A DNA stretch of 9,105 bases, taken from contig MHDQ01000219.1 in the NCBI GenBank assembly GCA_001803565.1, positions 3,997 through 13,101 on the forward strand. Direction: 5' to 3'. The translations under genes were made by a program, and so were the position numbers. Of the stretch, positions 352-9,105 are shown piece after piece. Within the stretch, counting starts at the first letter, position 1, and the number at the start of each line of letters is the position of its first letter. The stretch is from Nitrospinae bacterium RIFCSPLOWO2_12_FULL_45_22. Its GTDB lineage: Bacteria; 2-12-FULL-45-22. The notes beneath the pieces were generated by a model that saw only the letters and a program-made list of their open reading frames with translations, was not told the origin of the DNA and made no database searches.

Positions 352-774
352 TTATTTCAGTTCCTGAAGGTTTTTGTGGCAGGAGAAACAGAAAAGCTGA
401 CCCGGCATTGTGCGTCTTAGAAAGCTGGTTTTCTGTCTACCTTCCGTGTTGATAAACCCTTCGTGAAAGGTATGACAGGTAATACAGGCGATTTTACCAT
501 CTTTATCCAGGGGCATATCGGCCGGAACAGGCATCGATGGGACAACCTTTATGGGGTGAGAAAAATGGCTATGCGCCTGATGGCATTCCATGCAAGCCCT
601 ATTGACCGTTTCCGTAAAGAAAATCTGGTGTCCAGCAAAGGGTAACCGCTCATGACACTGGAGACAGCCTATCATCACAATATCATCGTGAACCCCGAGG
701 CTATACCCTGCATTTTCTGAAAGATAGAGGAGCCCGAGCAAAAATAGGGCTATGCCATATAAGCTGAATCTCAT
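352..774 (-). CDS. Periplasmic four-heme c-type cytochrome (doubled-CXXCH type)
   Basis: Predicted 140-residue exported electron-transfer protein. Residues 1-24 form a signal peptide or N-terminal membrane anchor with a hydrophobic core (LYGIALFLLGLLYL). Four CxxCH heme c sites follow: CLQCH 37-41, CMECH 61-65, CITCH 97-101 and CFSCH 129-133. Additional histidines (H49, H68, H70, H73, H104) are possible distal ligands. The block HPIKVVPSMPVPADMPLD between hemes 2 and 3 is characteristic of small doubled-CXXCH cytochromes. It is the last gene of the minus-strand operon. Its ATG overlaps the TGA of the preceding HAMP gene (ATGA, 771-774) and there is no strong ribosome site, so it is probably translated by coupling. 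Heme loading would occur in the periplasm after Sec export. The redox partner is unknown. An obvious terminator is not seen downstream. Confidence 0.88.
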   Translation of the reverse strand: MRFSLYGIALFLLGLLYLSENAGYSLGVHDDIVMIGCLQCHERLPFAGHQIFFTETVNRACMECHQAHSHFSHPIKVVPSMPVPADMPLDKDGKIACITCHTFHEGFINTEGRQKTSFLRRTMPGQLFCFSCHKNLQELK

Positions 775-1355
775 CTATTAAATATCTTCAATCCATCTTC
801 GAAGGCCCTAATATCCTCCATCGCCTTCTTTTGTGTGTGGACCAGGATATCAGGCTTCCCCGATGCTTTTTCCATTTCTATGATGGATTTGGTGAGAGCC
901 TGTGAGAGGTGTTTTAAATCTAAAAATCTTTTCCTGAAACCCTCAACCATAATGTTCAATTCCGCTGCAAAATCTTTGAATTCGTCTTTGCCCCTCAAGA
1001 TGATAGAAAAACTCAGATCCCCTTGAGATATCCTGTATAGATCAGTCCTGATTCTATGCAAAGGGCCAGTGATGGTCCAGAAGATTAGTATCGTGGCAAA
1101 AATAAACACGAGAAAAACAAAAAAAAGGGCAAAAAGATTGGCATACAGTATTTCGCTGAAAAGGAGCTGGCCGGTTGATTCGGTAAAGATATGGATCTTA
1201 TACTGCATTTGATCGAGCTTCCTGTATGCCAGAAAATTAAATAACCCTATGGCCAGAACCCCACCTAGGGCGGCGACCAGGGAAAACTTCAGGACAAATT
1301 TACCCTGAAAGCCCTTCTTTATGAAGTAATTTCTCCTTTTATACGGCTTTTTCAT
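771..1355 (-). CDS. HAMP-domain membrane protein without output domain (second copy)
   Basis: Predicted 194-residue inner-membrane protein. The start chosen is the ATG at 1355, preceded by GAAAGG nine bases upstream. The frame is open 16 codons further to 1403, but those codons come from a palindromic repeat. Layout: basic N-terminus (MKKPYKRRNYFIKK), TM1 about 20-43, a loop of about 28 residues, TM2 about 72-94, then a HAMP domain about 95-143 with the usual proline (TGPLHRIR) and GDLSF motifs, and a short helical tail. No histidine kinase, GGDEF, EAL or methyl-accepting domain follows; the protein ends about 50 residues after HAMP. It shares architecture with the gene immediately upstream and is probably a diverged duplicate of it. 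The role is not known. The operon suggests a membrane adaptor between the NHL propeller and the cytochrome, or a partner of a separately encoded signalling protein. Confidence 0.85.
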   Translation of the reverse strand: MKKPYKRRNYFIKKGFQGKFVLKFSLVAALGGVLAIGLFNFLAYRKLDQMQYKIHIFTESTGQLLFSEILYANLFALFFVFLVFIFATILIFWTITGPLHRIRTDLYRISQGDLSFSIILRGKDEFKDFAAELNIMVEGFRKRFLDLKHLSQALTKSIIEMEKASGKPDILVHTQKKAMEDIRAFEDGLKIFNR

Positions 1356-1456
1356 ACCTTGTAACCTTTCAGCCACAGGGACACGGAGCCACAGAGAAAC
1401 CATTCATCTCAGTGACTCTGGGTCTCTGTGGCAAATGTTTTCCTACTGAATGGTTA
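1356..1456. repeat. Palindromic repeat spacer between the two HAMP genes
   Basis: This 101-bp gap holds nested inverted repeats. Segments 1372-1388 (gccacagggacacggag) and 1416-1432 are complementary at 14 of 17 positions. The inner copy gccacagag (1388-1396) also pairs perfectly with 1424-1432. A third arm pair, aaccattca (1398-1406) with tgaatggtt (1447-1455), matches 9 of 9. The sequence resembles the ccacagagacacagag type of dispersed repeat seen in environmental bacterial genomes. The structure would lie in the operon mRNA and could alter transcript stability or the ratio of the two HAMP proteins. It lacks a T-tract and does not look like a terminator. Confidence 0.6.
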
Positions 1457-2023
1457 TCATACCTTGATGCCTGAGAGGATTCTGCTAATATCTTCTGCCT
1501 TCTCAGCAGCATCATCAATCACTCGCTGTGCTTCTTCAGATGTTCCTCTCACCGTTAAAGCTTCCGTTTTCTGGGAGATTTCCTTTAACGCATGGATTCC
1601 TCTTTCCAATTGCTGAATGATCTCGCTGTAGTTTCTGGTTATATCATTTAAAGCATCAGCCAATGGGTGGATTACATCCTTCTCTCTTAAGTGGACTTTT
1701 ACTCTGAGGTCTCCCTCGGCAATGATTTTGGCGGTTAACCCGAGCCGGTAAATAGGCCCCGCTACCCTGTGAGAATACAGAAGGGTCATAACTGCTACGC
1801 CGATCAGGAAGAAAGAAGTAGCAGAATAGACCATAATGGTCTTATATAACAGTTCCTGTTTAAGCTTTGCAATCAGTTCCAGGCTTTCTTTATAGGAAGG
1901 TCCAAATTCTTCATAAATGGCAAGATAAAATACCGCCACTGTCATAATAGCCCCGGCAGTTATGATTAAAAGGGACTTGAGAGCGAGTTTATAGGGAAAG
2001 GACCTGGAAATAATCTCCTTCAT
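1457..2023 (-). CDS. HAMP-domain membrane protein without output domain (first copy)
   Basis: Predicted 188-residue inner-membrane protein. The start used is the ATG at 2023, one base after the TAA of the NHL gene, with GAGGTA seven bases upstream inside the end of that gene; a start ten codons earlier would overlap the NHL gene and lacks this ribosome site. Layout: basic amphipathic N-terminus (MKEIISRSFPYKLALKS), TM1 about 13-36, a 25-residue extracytoplasmic loop, TM2 about 62-84, HAMP about 85-137 (VAGPIYRL and EGDLRV motifs, then DVIHPLADALN), then a coiled-coil-like tail about 138-188 (EIIQQLERGIHALKEISQ). There is no recognisable catalytic or MCP signalling domain. Gene order and the near-zero gap tie its synthesis to the secreted propeller. 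The extracytoplasmic loop is too short for a typical ligand-binding domain, so input would have to come through another protein. Confidence 0.87.
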   Translation of the reverse strand: MKEIISRSFPYKLALKSLLIITAGAIMTVAVFYLAIYEEFGPSYKESLELIAKLKQELLYKTIMVYSATSFFLIGVAVMTLLYSHRVAGPIYRLGLTAKIIAEGDLRVKVHLREKDVIHPLADALNDITRNYSEIIQQLERGIHALKEISQKTEALTVRGTSEEAQRVIDDAAEKAEDISRILSGIKV

Positions 2024-2024
2024 A

Positions 2025-3332
2025 TTATTGTACCTCAACCACAATGCTGTCACATGTCGCGTATGCGGGATTGTAGACCCCGTTCAGGTTCCTATCCAGA
2101 CAGAGATAGAATGTAAGGTCAATTGCGGGAAACCCTGCGGTACTACTAAAGATCGGCCAAACAATATCATTCAGGACAGCGGGTACGGTGAAGCTATTGA
2201 GCAGCGGGGCTATCTCTGTATAGGCACTAACTTGCCGCACGCCGCCGGTAATATCCAGGGAGAATTTCAAGTCCCTGCCTTGCAATCGGGTCTCTACCCA
2301 GGCAAAGACCTCTGTGGCCGCCTCTCGCCAGTAAGTGTTTGACTGGATGTCAAAACTTAGTGTGATCGGCCCGGGGATGGCAACAGACTTGCTGGTGGCA
2401 CCATTCTCAAAGACGAAAATATCCGGCTTAAAGACCACCACCCGGTCATTGAAGCTATCCGCTACATAAACATTGCTGCCCCAGTCAACCGTCAGACCTG
2501 TCGGGTTACTGAGGGTATCAGCGCCCCATTCCGCAAAAGTCCCATCAGGAGATAGCTTCTGTATCCGGTCATTTCCCGTATCGGCCACATAGATGGTGCC
2601 GTCCGGCCCGATCGCTATCCCTTCCGGCGCACTGAATTCTAAAGGGCCGGAACCCTCTGACCCACCGGCAGCTATGAATAGCCCCTTTGGGTCAAAAAGC
2701 TGAACCCTATTGTTATCGGTATCTACCACAAAGACATTGCCAGACCTATCAGTGGCCACATCTTTCGGGAAACGGAGATCTCCCTCTTCATTGCCCCCAC
2801 TGCCCCAGGCGGTTATAAAAGTTCCATTAGCATCAAATTTCTGTATCCTGTGATTGTCCGTATCTGCCACATAAACCGAGCCATCCGGCCCAACTGCGAT
2901 ACCTGAGGGGGCGTCAAATTGCCCGTTGCCATCGCCGCTAGAGCCCCATTCCGACAGCAACGCACCGGTTGGGGAGAATCTGAGCACCTTGTCAAAGAAA
3001 TTGGTGACATAATATAGGTCTCCACCGCTATTGGCCGCTATACCCTGGGGGAAGAAGTTTGTGGGGGTCCATTGAGACAAGAAATTCCCGAAAGGATCGA
3101 ATCTGAGTATCCTCGTGTTTGATGAGTCCGCGATATAGAACGTCCCATCAGGGGCAATAGCCACATCAGTCGGGCCGGTAAGAGAGCCAAAGGCCCCGGT
3201 CTCGAACTCTTTTAATATGGAATAAGTCTCTGCACCTGCTACAGCGGCTATGGCCAGTAAGAAAAAGCCACCTAAGATTACAGATTTCAGGCTTGCTTTA
3301 CAGCTTTGTAGCGCTCCCTGTTTCTCGTTCAT
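2025..3332 (-). CDS. Secreted six-repeat NHL beta-propeller protein with extra C-terminal domain
   Basis: Predicted 435-residue exported protein. The ATG at 3332 has AAGGAGGG six bases upstream. Residues 1-34 are a signal peptide or uncleaved anchor (hydrophobic VILGGFFLLAIAAVAGA, possible cleavage at AGA-ET). Six NHL repeats follow at about 53-84, 93-124, 140-171, 187-218, 234-264 and 275-304, each with the pattern P.G(I/V)A..PDG..YVAD(T/S).N.R(I/V)..F, enough for one closed six-bladed propeller. Blade 2 is the most diverged (YYVTNFFDKV). Residues 305-435 form a separate domain, probably beta-rich, ending in a short Asp/Asn-rich loop (DRNLNGVYNP) flanked by the only mature cysteines, C411 and C427, which could form a disulfide. 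NHL propellers bind proteins or other ligands; no catalytic role is evident. It leads a cytochrome-containing operon and is the likely scaffold or binding component. Confidence 0.9.
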   Translation of the reverse strand: MNEKQGALQSCKASLKSVILGGFFLLAIAAVAGAETYSILKEFETGAFGSLTGPTDVAIAPDGTFYIADSSNTRILRFDPFGNFLSQWTPTNFFPQGIAANSGGDLYYVTNFFDKVLRFSPTGALLSEWGSSGDGNGQFDAPSGIAVGPDGSVYVADTDNHRIQKFDANGTFITAWGSGGNEEGDLRFPKDVATDRSGNVFVVDTDNNRVQLFDPKGLFIAAGGSEGSGPLEFSAPEGIAIGPDGTIYVADTGNDRIQKLSPDGTFAEWGADTLSNPTGLTVDWGSNVYVADSFNDRVVVFKPDIFVFENGATSKSVAIPGPITLSFDIQSNTYWREAATEVFAWVETRLQGRDLKFSLDITGGVRQVSAYTEIAPLLNSFTVPAVLNDIVWPIFSSTAGFPAIDLTFYLCLDRNLNGVYNPAYATCDSIVVEVQ

Positions 3333-3437: not shown

Positions 3438-3998
3438 TCAGAATATCGCCTTTAATCCCACCTCAAAACCAGGCAGGATGATAGACCCTATCTCACCCTC
3501 TTCTATTGCCTTTCCCACAAGGACAAACTCATTGCCCCGGTTCTCATATAGCTCAATACTCCTCTCCCCCGGGTCAACTATCCAATACTCCTTCACCCCA
3601 TGCCTGGCATAAATAGCCTTCTTATGCCTTAAATCATAGTAGGCCGTAGAGGGAGATAGGATCTCTACCACCAGATCAGGTGCACCTTCGACTTTATCCT
3701 CTTTTATTATATCAAGCCGTTCTTTTGCGATAAAGATAAGATCGGGCTGATAGGTCTCCCCCTCTTCCAGATAGACATCAATAGGAGCAAAAAATACTTT
3801 ACCTAACTGGTTTTTACGTTCTACATATTCATAGAGCATGAACTCAAGCCGCTTTAACACTTCTTGATGATATGGCGTGGGAGAAGGTGTCATGATGAGC
3901 TGTCCTCCAATCAATTGGTATGGTGCCCCTTCGGGTAGCTTGGCATAATCTTCATAGGTATAAGATAGCCTTTTCGGGATCGTCTTTAACACGGCCAT
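3438..3998 (-). CDS. Uma2-family (DUF820) PD-(D/E)XK nuclease-fold protein
   Basis: Predicted 186-residue cytoplasmic protein that matches the Uma2/DUF820 family over its whole length. Recognisable blocks are SYTYEDYAKLPEGAPYQLIGGQ at the N-terminus (split here: SYTYEDYAKL, then YQLIGGQLIM), YQPDLIFI around residues 83-90, APDLVVEILSPST at 107-118 and YARHGVKEYWIVDP at 130-143. D86, D108 and E112 with the lysines at 126-127 are the probable nuclease-like acidic/lysine set. Substrate and role are unknown for most of the family, which is abundant in cyanobacteria and many environmental bacteria and often behaves as a mobile or orphan gene. The ATG at 3998 follows AAAGGAGGG by about eleven bases, inside a 7-codon leader ORF. 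It lies between the promoter at 4074-4102 and the NHL operon, so it may be co-transcribed with it, but it looks like an insertion rather than a pathway member. Confidence 0.88.
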   Translation of the reverse strand: MAVLKTIPKRLSYTYEDYAKLPEGAPYQLIGGQLIMTPSPTPYHQEVLKRLEFMLYEYVERKNQLGKVFFAPIDVYLEEGETYQPDLIFIAKERLDIIKEDKVEGAPDLVVEILSPSTAYYDLRHKKAIYARHGVKEYWIVDPGERSIELYENRGNEFVLVGKAIEEGEIGSIILPGFEVGLKAIF

Positions 3999-4240: not shown

Positions 4241-4612
4241 TTAAGCTTTAATGATCCTCCTCGCAAATTCCAGGACGGTTCTTATAGCCTCCTCCGGATT
4301 ATCGCTTAAATTACTCTCTACCACATTTTCCTGGGCTTTATCATGGAAATGTTTTGGATAGGTTTGGAGCTTCTTAGCTTCACGGTCAGGCAAGTTATTA
4401 TATCGATATATTGTTCCATCAACTTCTCTTCTTTCCCAATGATAGGCATATACTCCTTTTTTCTTCACTGAAAGCCAAATATCCATAAAAGTCTCATCCT
4501 TAAATAAAAGCCGTAATTTTCCTTCCATCACAGTTATGCCTTCTACAATATCTCCAAAATCGCTTACGGCGATCTGTCTAAATTGGGAATAAATTTTGTC
4601 TCTGGATATCAT
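4241..4612 (-). CDS. TumE/DUF6516-family protein, probable toxin of a type II-like module
   Basis: Predicted 123-residue cytoplasmic protein. The block YAYHWERREVDGTIYRYNN at about 55-73, followed by LPDREAKKLQTYPKHFH at 74-90, is the recognisable core of the DUF6516 (TumE) family, whose members are paired with small antitoxin genes. The biochemical target is not known to me; conserved His58, His88 and His90 with nearby Arg/Lys residues are candidates for an active site. The ATG at 4612 is two bases after the stop of the upstream small gene, and AAGG lies about ten bases ahead, so the two are translationally coupled with the antitoxin-like gene first, the usual toxin-antitoxin order. Length matches the family, with no sign of truncation. 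Confidence 0.75.
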   Translation of the reverse strand: MISRDKIYSQFRQIAVSDFGDIVEGITVMEGKLRLLFKDETFMDIWLSVKKKGVYAYHWERREVDGTIYRYNNLPDREAKKLQTYPKHFHDKAQENVVESNLSDNPEEAIRTVLEFARRIIKA

Positions 4613-4614
4613 TA

Positions 4615-4896
4615 CTAAGTTGCCTTCTGCAATAATTTGGCAACTTTTTCCTTTTCTAACTCAAGATACTCGATCCTGCCCAAATCATCAAAACACTCCC
4701 CCTCGGTTACCTCACCGGCCTCAAGTTTTTTCCATAGCCCCTCAAATGAATCCACACCATAGCGGTTTGATAATTTCTTTATTTCTATAGATAAATTTTT
4801 TAATTCTACTTCCAGATAGCGCCTGATTCCTTCTTCAACCAACCGTTTTTTAGGGATCTTTAATTCCTTCTCAACCATTTGTATTAGGCTCGGCAT
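4615..4896 (-). CDS. Small helical protein, probable antitoxin partner of the TumE-like gene
   Basis: Predicted 93 residues. The N-terminal 30 residues (LKIPKKRLVEEGIRRYLEVE) resemble a ribbon-helix-helix-like or short helical regulator segment, followed by a charged helix. Residues 48-75 (VDSFEGLWKKLEAGEVTEG, then ECFDDL) are acidic and match the partner-binding style of small antitoxins. The ATG at 4896 follows GGGGTGG by six bases. It is the first gene of a two-gene transcript with its own promoter at 4957-4985. Autoregulation is likely by analogy with toxin-antitoxin operons; the 8-bp palindrome tcatatga at 4917-4924, between promoter and start, is a possible operator. The antitoxin call rests mainly on context. 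Confidence 0.6.
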   Translation of the reverse strand: MPSLIQMVEKELKIPKKRLVEEGIRRYLEVELKNLSIEIKKLSNRYGVDSFEGLWKKLEAGEVTEGECFDDLGRIEYLELEKEKVAKLLQKAT

Positions 4897-5652: not shown

Positions 5653-8373
5653 ATGAAGCAAAAGAATAAATGGCGATTTTTGGTAATTTTTCTTGCCCTG
5701 GCCATCCCGCTTTTATTAACTACAGATGCCAAGGCATGGCAGGGCGATACCTTCTGTCTGCAATGTCACAAGACGGGCGGTGTAGTGGCGCTGGATAAAG
5801 AGAGCTATCTGAAAACGGGCCATAAGAATATGCTGCGGGAGGTATGTCCTAACAATGTATGTACCCCTTTGGCCGGCCCTGATGGGGTTATCTATCTCAC
5901 CGACGCCAGTCTCAATCCGATTAACTGGGCTACCGGAACGGTTAATATTGGCGGGGTAGATAAGATACTCTATTACATCCTTGATGGCTGGTTTGTTGAG
6001 AATACTCTACCCTCGGCGATATATGGGAGTGCAAATCCTGCGGATCCTCCTGGTCCTAATTACAGTTGCGCCAAATGCCACACCACAGGGTACGAAGCTG
6101 ATAATAATCAAACCCCTCTGCCAGCGGCGCATATAACAAACAGAACTGGAACTGGTTTCAGTACTACCGTTGGTGGTGTAGTTACTTCCTGGAACCTTGA
6201 TGGGATACAGTGCGAGCGCTGCCATGGTGGGATGAATCCCCCATTCGCAGGCCACCCAATTTTAGGGAGTTTAACTTGCACAAACTGCCATGATGGGACC
6301 AATCCACTAAATCACTCCAACTCAAGCCCAACTAATTGGTATGACCCTACACATCCGGAATACGAGGCAACAACTGAGCTGTGTATGAACTGCCATAGCC
6401 AAAATGCACTTCCACCTGGTGGATCTGGCTGGAGCACGCCGCAGCCGAAGCCCCTTGTAGTTGGGGCCCACGGTAGCTATGCCGAGGATTTTTCGGGCCA
6501 CCCCATAGGTGATGAGTACTTAAACAGCCCGAAGGCAAGGTTCCAGGGAACTTCGGCAGAGTTAACTGTCTCATCAAAATATCATAGCCATTTCTGGACT
6601 AGCGGCAAAAACAGGGGATGTGTCGGTTGTCACGATGTGCACGAAAGTACTGTGGATGTGATAGAGGCATCGCCGATACCCGCAGACAAAGAATGTACCG
6701 ATTGCCACGGCTATAAGAAAGTGGCAGATATACGCCATCCCTCCGGAGAAGAAACGCCCATTGAAGATCCCACCGTACAAAGTATGGACCCCTGTGTGGT
6801 CTGCCATATGCCTAAACTTCATCACGGAGAAGGGCTCAGGACCCATCTCTACCGGATAAACATTGACCCTGCCTACCGGACCTTCCCTACCCCAATGGAA
6901 TTCTATGGTGGGGTATGTAATGACACGCATGACGGTAAGGGTGGTGGTCCAGATGGTGATTGTGATGATTATATTGACACCAATGGCAATAAGAAATGGG
7001 ATGTTGGTGAACCAATAGAGAATAATAAGGCGGCTGGAAAGACCACAGCTTATACCGCTTCTGATGGCGAATTGGAAGAAGCGGTCTGGCTGGATCTGGA
7101 CAGTGCCTGCGGCCAATGCCACGGTGGTGGGACAGATAAGGCTGAAACTACCGGCTCAATCGATGCGAAATCGATGACTTTAACGGTGGCAGATGCTACC
7201 GGCTTTATTGCGGGTGAAGTCATTGAGGTTGAGGGTGCAGGAACCAGTGATCTGGAAGCCGTGATCGTCAGTATTAGTGAAAATTCAATTAAGATTGTGC
7301 CCGGGGCAGCAACTACTGTAACTGATGCACACGTGATCCAAAATCCTCCAAAAAAAGGTATGCCCTATATGAGCAAGGCCTACCTGGCATCCTGGGCGGT
7401 CAATATCCATCAGACACCTGAGGGAAGGTTCAACTGGATGCATGGCACAGACTGTTACCAGGTAAACTTCGATGCTACCATGAACCGCGGTGCCACTGAT
7501 ACCGTCACTAAGTTTGCTTGGAATTTTGGTGATCTTAAAACTTGGAGTAAGCCTGCCGATAATGATGCAAACACAAACTGCAATGACAAAGGGACCATTT
7601 GTAGTCATACCTATGCCGCACCAGGCACTTATGCCGTTACCCTGACCGTTAATTACAGCCTATCCCGCATCATGCTGGTAACGGCAAAGGGTAACAGTGC
7701 CGTTCCGGATAGCTTCTTCGATGTGTTTACCAATTATGATGGGGCATGTACGGATGGTAATCCATGCACCGATGATCCAACGGGTATGACAGCACGGGTA
7801 AAAGATGGCTCGGCTCCCAATTCCTGTGGGGCAACCACCGCTGGTACCGCCTATGTCATGTGGGGAGATGGGACCACTACGCAAGAGGGCATTACTCTTG
7901 GAGACGCAGAGTGGGATCACGAGTACAATAACCCGGGCACATACCACATCACTTACTGTGTCAAGGACAGCAATGGTAACAAGTCCTGCGCACCTAAGGT
8001 AACTGTGAATGTACCTGACAAGCCAACGGCGGTATATGAAGTGAGTGGTCTAATCACCTATGACGCTGATACACCGTGCTATGACTTAAATGGCGATGGT
8101 GATTGTACTGACCTTGGCGAAGTGGGTCCCGGGAATGGTGCTGCCAACGTCACCCTCTACCTGAAAAACGGCTTGACCATTGTCAAGATGGGTAAGACCG
8201 ATACTTCAGGCAACTATGAGATAAACAATGTGCCAGTATTAGACACTGATGGTGACGGAGTTGAAGACCCCTACACCATAGTGCCAAAGAGGAACGGATA
8301 CTTCTTCACACCTGAGACGCAGGAAGTGGATAGCTCAAGTCCGATGGCAGACTTTGAAGCCACTTCAGAGTAG
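5653..8373 (+). CDS. Secreted nine-heme c-type cytochrome with PKD and Cna-B/SdrD-like domains
   Basis: Predicted 906 residues, exported; AAAGGAGGT lies seven bases before the ATG. Signal peptide 1-28 (cleavage after DAKA). Nine CxxCH sites: C35, C139, C187, C209, C244, C323, C348, C381 and C486 (first cysteines). Blocks such as YLKTGHKNMLREV near 52-64, YSCAKCHTTGY at 137-147, GIQCERCHGG at 184-193 and GCVGCHDVHEST at 322-333 are typical of large multiheme cytochromes of anaerobes. A Ca-binding-type loop (DYIDTNGNKKWDVGEP, 439-454) and a beta-rich insert (about 500-562) split heme 9 and the tail from the rest. Residues about 600-668 (FAWNFGD, PGTYAVTLTV) and 730-787 (MWGDG, PGTYHITYCV) are PKD-like; about 795-906 is a Cna-B/SdrD-like or carboxypeptidase-regulatory fold with Asp-rich loops. 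No CxxCK or enzyme signature is seen, so electron transfer or surface adhesion is more likely than a reductase. Confidence 0.92.
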   Translation: MKQKNKWRFLVIFLALAIPLLLTTDAKAWQGDTFCLQCHKTGGVVALDKESYLKTGHKNMLREVCPNNVCTPLAGPDGVIYLTDASLNPINWATGTVNIGGVDKILYYILDGWFVENTLPSAIYGSANPADPPGPNYSCAKCHTTGYEADNNQTPLPAAHITNRTGTGFSTTVGGVVTSWNLDGIQCERCHGGMNPPFAGHPILGSLTCTNCHDGTNPLNHSNSSPTNWYDPTHPEYEATTELCMNCHSQNALPPGGSGWSTPQPKPLVVGAHGSYAEDFSGHPIGDEYLNSPKARFQGTSAELTVSSKYHSHFWTSGKNRGCVGCHDVHESTVDVIEASPIPADKECTDCHGYKKVADIRHPSGEETPIEDPTVQSMDPCVVCHMPKLHHGEGLRTHLYRINIDPAYRTFPTPMEFYGGVCNDTHDGKGGGPDGDCDDYIDTNGNKKWDVGEPIENNKAAGKTTAYTASDGELEEAVWLDLDSACGQCHGGGTDKAETTGSIDAKSMTLTVADATGFIAGEVIEVEGAGTSDLEAVIVSISENSIKIVPGAATTVTDAHVIQNPPKKGMPYMSKAYLASWAVNIHQTPEGRFNWMHGTDCYQVNFDATMNRGATDTVTKFAWNFGDLKTWSKPADNDANTNCNDKGTICSHTYAAPGTYAVTLTVNYSLSRIMLVTAKGNSAVPDSFFDVFTNYDGACTDGNPCTDDPTGMTARVKDGSAPNSCGATTAGTAYVMWGDGTTTQEGITLGDAEWDHEYNNPGTYHITYCVKDSNGNKSCAPKVTVNVPDKPTAVYEVSGLITYDADTPCYDLNGDGDCTDLGEVGPGNGAANVTLYLKNGLTIVKMGKTDTSGNYEINNVPVLDTDGDGVEDPYTIVPKRNGYFFTPETQEVDSSSPMADFEATSE

Positions 8374-8551: not shown

Positions 8552-8571
8552 TAATGGAAGGAGGGAAGAGG

Positions 8572-9105
8572 ATGAAAAAAACGATCAGTTTAATAATCAT
8601 GTTCCTTGCCCTGTCCCTTTTCCTCTGCTCAGGTAGTGTTATAGCAGCGGATTATAGTTCAAAGACTCCGGGGACAGGCATCGAGGATACAGCCCATGAC
8701 CTCCGGTATGGACATCCTGCCGGTGATGTTTATGGGGCCAATGATGTCGATAATGAATATGGTGGCGGTGACCTGAACCGGATATGTATCTGGTGCCATG
8801 CACCACACCATACCCTCAGGCCGGCCGATTTTGCCGGGGATATTGACTATCTACCCCTGTGGAACCATACCACCACGACCATGGTTTATCAGACCTATAG
8901 CAATGGGGCGGATGATCCGGATGACCCAAACCATGCCTCTACGGCAGAGATCCTGGCCAATCAACCGGGCTCAGTATCCAAGCTCTGCCTGAGCTGTCAT
9001 GATGGTACCGTGGCAGTCAATGAGTATGGTTTTGCCCCGGGTGACATCAAGTCCAGTGGTGTACGCAAGGGAGATGCCCCGGTCTTTATCACGTCCCAGT
9101 ACCGG
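8572..9105 (+). CDS. Secreted multiheme cytochrome, OmcE-like, 5' part (runs off the window)
   Basis: 178 codons are present with no stop before the window end. AAGGAGGG lies six bases before the ATG at 8572; an in-frame ATG at 8554 would read through that ribosome site and is less likely. Signal peptide 1-26 (LIIMFLALSLFLCSGSVIAA, cleavage near IAA-DY; a lipobox is not convincing). Two heme c sites are visible: CIWCH 72-76 followed by APHHT, and CLSCH 139-143 followed by DGTVAVNEYG. Between them lies PLWNH (95-99) and a Gly/Asp-rich loop. The series HDLR, CxxCHxPH, PLWNH, SKLCLSCHDGTVA is the pattern I associate with small tetraheme outer-surface cytochromes such as OmcE; two further hemes would be expected beyond the edge. 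It follows the nine-heme gene on the same strand after a 198-bp spacer with a hairpin and heptad repeats. Confidence 0.85.
   Translation, partial: MKKTISLIIMFLALSLFLCSGSVIAADYSSKTPGTGIEDTAHDLRYGHPAGDVYGANDVDNEYGGGDLNRICIWCHAPHHTLRPADFAGDIDYLPLWNHTTTTMVYQTYSNGADDPDDPNHASTAEILANQPGSVSKLCLSCHDGTVAVNEYGFAPGDIKSSGVRKGDAPVFITSQYR

Follow-up and report, generated by a model that had tools for sequence, protein, structure and literature searches.

DcrA of Desulfovibrio is a c-heme chemoreceptor of the same type as GSU0582 and GSU0935 of Geobacter. Af1503 is a receptor with HAMP as its last domain and no output domain. In GSU0582 and GSU0935, a periplasmic c-type heme lies over two transmembrane helices and a HAMP domain within a single chain, and a redox-linked switch of the heme ligand above HAMP has been proposed (PMC8396549). 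In the SRII-HtrII complex, the sensor acts in trans on a two-helix transducer (PMC12917780). One heme of NrfH is ligated by a lysine from NrfA (PMC8840924), and hemes of OmcS and OmcE are ligated by histidines of the adjacent subunit (PMC9473688). Here we describe an operon of Nitrospinae bacterium RIFCSPLOWO2_12_FULL_45_22 in which the genes of two HAMP proteins, HAMP1 and HAMP2, precede that of a predicted periplasmic tetraheme cytochrome c, CYT4. It lies in a stretch of 9,105 nucleotides (nt), below called the window (contig MHDQ01000219.1, positions 3,997 to 13,101), which is part of contig C219 in a draft genome of 3.67 Mb and 321 contigs.

The conserved unit of this locus is a stand-alone protein with two transmembrane helices and a HAMP domain (2TM-HAMP; about 190 amino acids, no output domain) and the adjacent tetraheme CYT4. 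It is smaller than the module of four genes proposed in an earlier note on this DNA. The operon itself is confirmed: open reading frames and Pfam agree with the note on the four minus-strand genes, their domains and their spacing. The genes are transcribed in the order NHL beta-propeller (2025..3332, 435 amino acids), HAMP1 (1457..2023, 188 amino acids), HAMP2 (771..1355, 194 amino acids) and CYT4 (352..774, 140 amino acids). The propeller is separated by 1 nt from HAMP1 (ATG at 2023), HAMP1 by 101 nt from HAMP2, and HAMP2 and CYT4 overlap by 4 nt; the start of HAMP2 was taken at the ATG at 1355, where the conserved N-terminus of the family begins. From this spacing, the four genes are probably co-transcribed. 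Promoter and terminator scans of the operon gave a signal at chance level. The 101-nt gap contains a 10-nt perfect inverted repeat, GCCACAGAGA/TCTCTGTGGC (window 1388-1432).

The propeller has five NHL repeats (Pfam, 8.7e-43) and a C-terminal extension of about 130 amino acids. CYT4 matches Paired_CXXCH_1, Cytochrom_c3_2 and Cytochrome_C7 in Pfam, and its heme sites are CLQCH (652..666), CMECH (580..594), CITCH (472..486) and CFSCH (376..390). Both proteins begin with a hydrophobic segment, a signal in the propeller and a signal or anchor in CYT4, which suggests that the propeller is secreted and the cytochrome periplasmic. The HAMP domains of HAMP1 and HAMP2 are weak by Pfam (E 2.6e-4 and 0.019; 21.7 and 15.7 bits), under the gathering score of 25, yet they are backed by the agreement of the family profile and the tree. 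An NCBIfam scan of the four operon proteins named none above its cut-offs.

A search with HAMP1 against 386 phylogenetically spread genomes (E <= 1e-6) gave matches in 62 of them, mostly stand-alone 2TM-HAMP proteins of about 140-250 amino acids. This family as a whole carries no Pfam name. Two transmembrane helices, with a periplasmic loop of only about 25 residues between them, are followed by the HAMP motif (GP..R, G-L, R..D), and the chains stop about 60 amino acids past HAMP. No known output domain (MCP, HisKA, GGDEF) was found in HAMP1 or HAMP2 with Pfam or NCBIfam, and neither contains a CxxCH motif. The cytosolic N-terminal motif [KR]RR.YFIK..FQ.(R/K)F is present in HAMP2 (RRNYFIKKGFQ, 1305..1337 on the minus strand), a canonical member with a periplasmic histidine, a short HAMP domain and a coiled coil. 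HAMP1 is the divergent partner, with an intact HAMP domain and neither the YFIKxxFQ motif nor the loop histidine. The HAMP domain, the N-terminal FQ motif and the C-terminal aromatic tail are largely kept across the family, which fits the expectation for a transducer. A low-confidence single-sequence AlphaFold model of HAMP2 (predicted local distance difference test, pLDDT, 60.9) has helices at 15-55, 62-109, 118-165 and 171-193.

Family members without a cytochrome neighbour show no single partner in a Pfam tally of their neighbours (N_methyl pilin 8/99, TPR 6, ComEC 4). Genes for pilin-like (N_methyl), ComEC and TPR proteins are often near them (L048, L053, L095, L101). In-frame TAA or TAG stops occur in HAMP genes of G335 (L054 2689-3063) and G356 (L042/L145), which are either truncated or affected by assembly errors.

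Several matches of the HAMP1 search lie immediately next to multiheme cytochromes that are homologous to CYT4 in their N-terminal part, and further loci came from phylum-wide searches with the HAMP alignment. HAMP-CYT4 pairs were found in one lineage in G265, G386, G387, G388 and G389; in another in G108, G400, G406, G372, G405 and G244; in G207; in G227; and in further lineages in G335, G420 and G425, then in G148 and G286. The locus of G119 was found from the cytochrome side. With the window included, the pair recurs in at least eight phylum-level bacterial lineages, and thus its adjacency exceeds chance. The order of the two genes varies, and the gaps are mostly short or overlapping.

In the opposite direction, the CYT4 alignment found 15 matches of at least 100 bits, one of which begins at a contig end (G356:C164). 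A HAMP neighbour stands beside 13 of the 14 testable matches; the sole HAMP-less one is the second CYT4 copy of the source genome itself, on contig C3. A chance neighbourhood was rejected, since the linkage was recovered in both directions, with the HAMP query and with the cytochrome query. A search for related loci among genome contigs gave only a weak archaeal multiheme match (L008), and the cytochrome alignment had no match in viral sequences. A search of open-licence papers found none on the HAMP-CYT4 pair and no described family covering it.

Some contexts of the pair and its relatives recur or are unusual. At L057, L198, L199 and L200, in several genomes of the phylum of G265, the pair sits between the ribosomal genes rplM and rpsI. 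On contig C3 of the source genome (L013), a CYT4-like seven-heme protein is accompanied by two large multiheme cytochromes, an NHL propeller and an MshEN-like protein of 128 amino acids, with no HAMP protein. At L057 (1372-1899) and L103 (915-1442) the second heme site of CYT4 is apparently a long C-X(n)-CH motif (CMRGEENKTINGIGCH) and not CxxCH.

The HAMP proteins beside cytochromes differ from the others in the periplasmic loop. A histidine in the column of HAMP2 His55 (codon 1191..1193, minus strand) is found in 26 of 31 cytochrome-adjacent HAMP proteins versus 2 of 60 without a cytochrome (Fisher p 1.4e-15, a value that overstates the evidence, as the correlation is partly shared ancestry). 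The five cytochrome-adjacent proteins without it are each the second member of a pair whose mate has it, and one HAMP protein with the loop histidine is present at every cytochrome-linked locus in the set. The two histidine-bearing proteins without a cytochrome are low-scoring, poorly aligned rows. The later search with the cytochrome query added three loci (L159, L166, L180); these also carry the histidine, and two of them have degenerate HAMP motifs. Among the proteins recovered with HAMP1, a query that itself lacks the histidine, the columns that best separate the two groups are mostly in the loop; the separating residues are Y51, A53, H54, K58, L64 and P66 (model columns). This pattern suggests that the loop histidine is a heme-binding contact to CYT4.

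The CYT4 family, in turn, conserves too few distal histidines for its hemes. Besides four CxxCH sites it has three conserved further histidines, in a near-N-terminal (P)H, in SHP and in CHxPH. In HAMP-linked members the extra histidines can fall short of the need for bis-histidine ligation, with three for four hemes in L132 and L134 and three for five in L110, whereas each of ten CYT4 arrays without HAMP has one or more extra histidines for every heme. From the correlation and the ligand counts we infer that the HAMP loop histidine may coordinate a CYT4 heme, with His55 of HAMP2 as the proposed axial ligand.

Our tentative reading, to which we give slightly less than an even chance, is that HAMP1, HAMP2 and CYT4 together make up a HAMP-based redox receptor that is split over separate proteins. 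Neither 2TM-HAMP chain has its own sensor domain; the two would form a four-helix membrane bundle, from HAMP1 and HAMP2 in the window and presumably from a homodimer at single-HAMP loci. CYT4 would dock onto the periplasmic loop, where His55 of HAMP2 would cap one of its four hemes as the distal ligand. Reduction of the heme, or a small ligand displacing the histidine, would alter the ligation and shift the helices, and this movement would pass through HAMP and the C-terminal coiled coil to a cytoplasmic partner. The propeller would serve the same electron-transfer locus as an accessory. Sequence comparison shows the operon, the repeated HAMP-CYT4 linkage, the correlation of the histidine with the cytochrome and the scarcity of conserved distal histidines in CYT4, and from these we infer direct contact of the proteins, heme ligation, a HAMP heterodimer, and signalling with its output. 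The interpretation in the earlier note is partly supported, in that its trans-envelope redox-sensing module is the reading that best fits the HAMP proteins and the cytochrome.

The SRII-HtrII complex is similar in that the transducer has two helices but no sensor domain in the periplasm, receives its signal from a separate protein and relays it through HAMP; the HAMP family profile matches HtrII chains (2f95_B, E 1.3e-5). The window pair likewise has only the short loop in place of a periplasmic domain, and the CYT4 gene alongside. However, the sensor of HtrII is a rhodopsin with seven transmembrane helices and its output is an MCP domain, whereas here the candidate sensor is a periplasmic multiheme cytochrome and there is no MCP domain. 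The Geobacter chemoreceptors share the c-type heme over two helices and HAMP, but carry one heme in the same chain as an MCP output; here four hemes are on a separate protein and the output domain is missing. The profile also matches the HAMP domain of Af1503 (4gn0_A, E 0.027), a HAMP-only receptor; it differs in having an extracellular domain of its own, and it is not known to have a cytochrome partner. Inter-subunit histidine ligation is known from the OmcS and OmcE filaments, while here the histidine would come from a HAMP protein of the inner membrane. The sequence match of CYT4 to OmcS is short and weak (E 5e-4).

Several observations weigh against a split receptor. Independent contrasts for the histidine number only 2-3 on supported branches and 8-10 on the best tree. 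CYT4 of the window has six extra histidines and could be self-sufficient, so that for this protein the ligand argument is one of conservation only. The structure models, single-sequence and without a complex, are poor (pLDDT 43.6 for CYT4 and 60.9 for HAMP2) and unusable for ligand geometry or fold search. The HAMP motif is degenerate in a few cytochrome-linked HAMP proteins (L159, L061_10194), the analysis identified no cytoplasmic partner, and fusions to electron-transfer domains (10-11 hemes, C554 domain) are found in many relatives.

Fusions of CYT4 to more hemes and a C554 domain (L066, L159, L166, L180) point to the main rival explanation, in which the HAMP-derived four-helix bundle is a membrane dock for electron transfer, perhaps quinol-oxidising, with a role like that of NrfH or NapC and with signalling secondary or lost. 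L159 retains the periplasmic loop despite its degenerate HAMP, and the second copy in the phylum of G265 lies in an operon resembling an outer-membrane conduit, with a putative barrel, lipoproteins, a SurA-type foldase, the cytochromes c25 and c16 and, in some cases, a propeller. NrfH and NapC are also membrane-attached tetraheme c-type cytochromes, and NrfH takes a heme ligand from its partner subunit. However, anchor and cytochrome are separate proteins here, and the match of CYT4 to Cytochrom_NNT (PF03264, NapC/NirT) is weak (E 0.079, 13.1 bits, cut-off 24.1). No quinone-site signature was recognised in the sequence. Moreover, most members retain the HAMP signature, the FQ motif and the coiled-coil tail, which are common to about 60 relatives without a cytochrome neighbour. 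We consider the anchor unlikely.

The foldase genes bear on another rival, a maturation or export factor that would hold newly made CYT4 until all its hemes have been inserted. SurA/PpiC foldases lie beside the HAMP gene in L069, L185 and L188, and beside a non-cytochrome HAMP gene in G027; there are ccm-like genes near L050 and a CcsA-like gene in L194. Most cytochrome-rich loci have no such genes, and the histidine correlates with one cytochrome family and not with cytochromes generally, which makes this role improbable. The cytochrome-assembly function suggested in the earlier note accordingly finds weak circumstantial support in these genes, and nothing firmer.

To return to the split receptor, the presence of two HAMP genes at one locus is not confined to the window. 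HAMP-CYT4-HAMP trios occur in G108, G400, G406 and G425; the order in the window is HAMP-HAMP-CYT4. In every pair or trio one member has the loop histidine and the other does not. In a first tree HAMP1 grouped with the histidine-less HAMP protein of G108 and HAMP2 with its histidine-bearing mate (Shimodaira-Hasegawa-like approximate likelihood ratio test 82 and 87; long branches, weak). In a second tree the HAMP2 grouping held at 81, and that of HAMP1 was not resolved. These sequence patterns suggest that HAMP1 and HAMP2 form a heterodimer of old standing.

In G108, G400 and G406 the gene of a T2SSE ATPase borders on or overlaps the trio, with T2SSF and pilin genes downstream; HD-GYP genes lie upstream in all three, and GGDEF genes also in G108 and G400. 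The order within the trio (L061, L191, L192) is histidine-bearing HAMP, CYT4, HAMP. As the trio runs into these genes, its output in this lineage might be a secretion or pilus machine. One could suppose that the trio gates the assembly ATPase of a machine like type II secretion or type IV pili by redox state in some lineages. Secretion genes are absent from the surroundings of the window operon and from the other lineages, and this would probably be a lineage-specific output of the same receptor; as a separate explanation it seems very improbable to us.

The four-gene order of the window, NHL-HAMP-HAMP-CxxCH, was seen at no other locus among the genomes searched. The earlier note had held that its proposal would fall if homologues of the four genes never clustered elsewhere. 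HAMP-CYT4 clusters do occur in many lineages, with the trios in four genomes, but propellers, of the NHL or a related type, join them only in a minority, namely in the window, L050, L069 and L188 (the window, G207 and part of the phylum of G265). A dedicated module of all four parts would account for the tight packing of the genes in the window, for these three loci, and for the propeller near CYT4-like cytochromes on contig C3. However, L043, L054, L061, L066, L189-L192 and L194 have no propeller, and NHL proteins join other multiheme cytochromes without HAMP (L167, L169, L172-L175, L177), so that we regard such a module as scarcely probable. NHL was also rejected as a general core partner, as most HAMP-CYT4 loci lack a propeller. 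The propeller is thus an accessory of the wider electron-transfer neighbourhood, outside the core.

A recurring trio without HAMP was observed at L167, L169, L172, L173, L174 and L175, comprising a three-heme protein, an NHL propeller of about 270-295 amino acids and an 18-heme cytochrome of about 650 amino acids. At L177 an NHL propeller occurs with a 17-heme cytochrome, again without HAMP. Clusters of Desulfovibrio ferrophilus also contain NHL proteins (PMC9769857).

Upstream of the operon, the window encodes a Uma2 family protein (3438-3998) and, on the minus strand, a TumE toxin domain protein (PF20126) beside an open reading frame of 93 amino acids, likely a toxin-antitoxin pair (4241-4896). 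Divergent from the operon, on the plus strand, are a multiheme cytochrome of 906 amino acids with PKD domains (5653-8373) and a second cytochrome with doubled CXXCH motifs, which runs past the window end (8554-9105). To the left of the window, contig C219 (L011 1-4012) encodes a histidine kinase with HAMP, an HD-GYP/receiver protein and an NtrC-type sigma-54 regulator. These genes are convergent with the operon, and their products are possible candidate partners.

The HAMP-CYT4 linkage provides a first context for a large family, as yet unnamed, of HAMP proteins that lack output domains. It would be a new instance among HAMP transducers with heme or trans sensors, and there is a real chance that it is a separate class. 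It is possible, although we would not call it probable, that it represents a widespread undescribed class of receptors, in which a periplasmic multiheme cytochrome is the trans sensor for a HAMP-only transducer, coupled by a histidine that the transducer donates to a heme. If the split receptor exists, it would let cells that respire metals or partners sense the redox state of their periplasmic cytochrome pool, and periplasmic electron flow would be read directly into the cytoplasm, through a direct physical link between a multiheme wire and a signalling helix bundle, marked by one mutable histidine.

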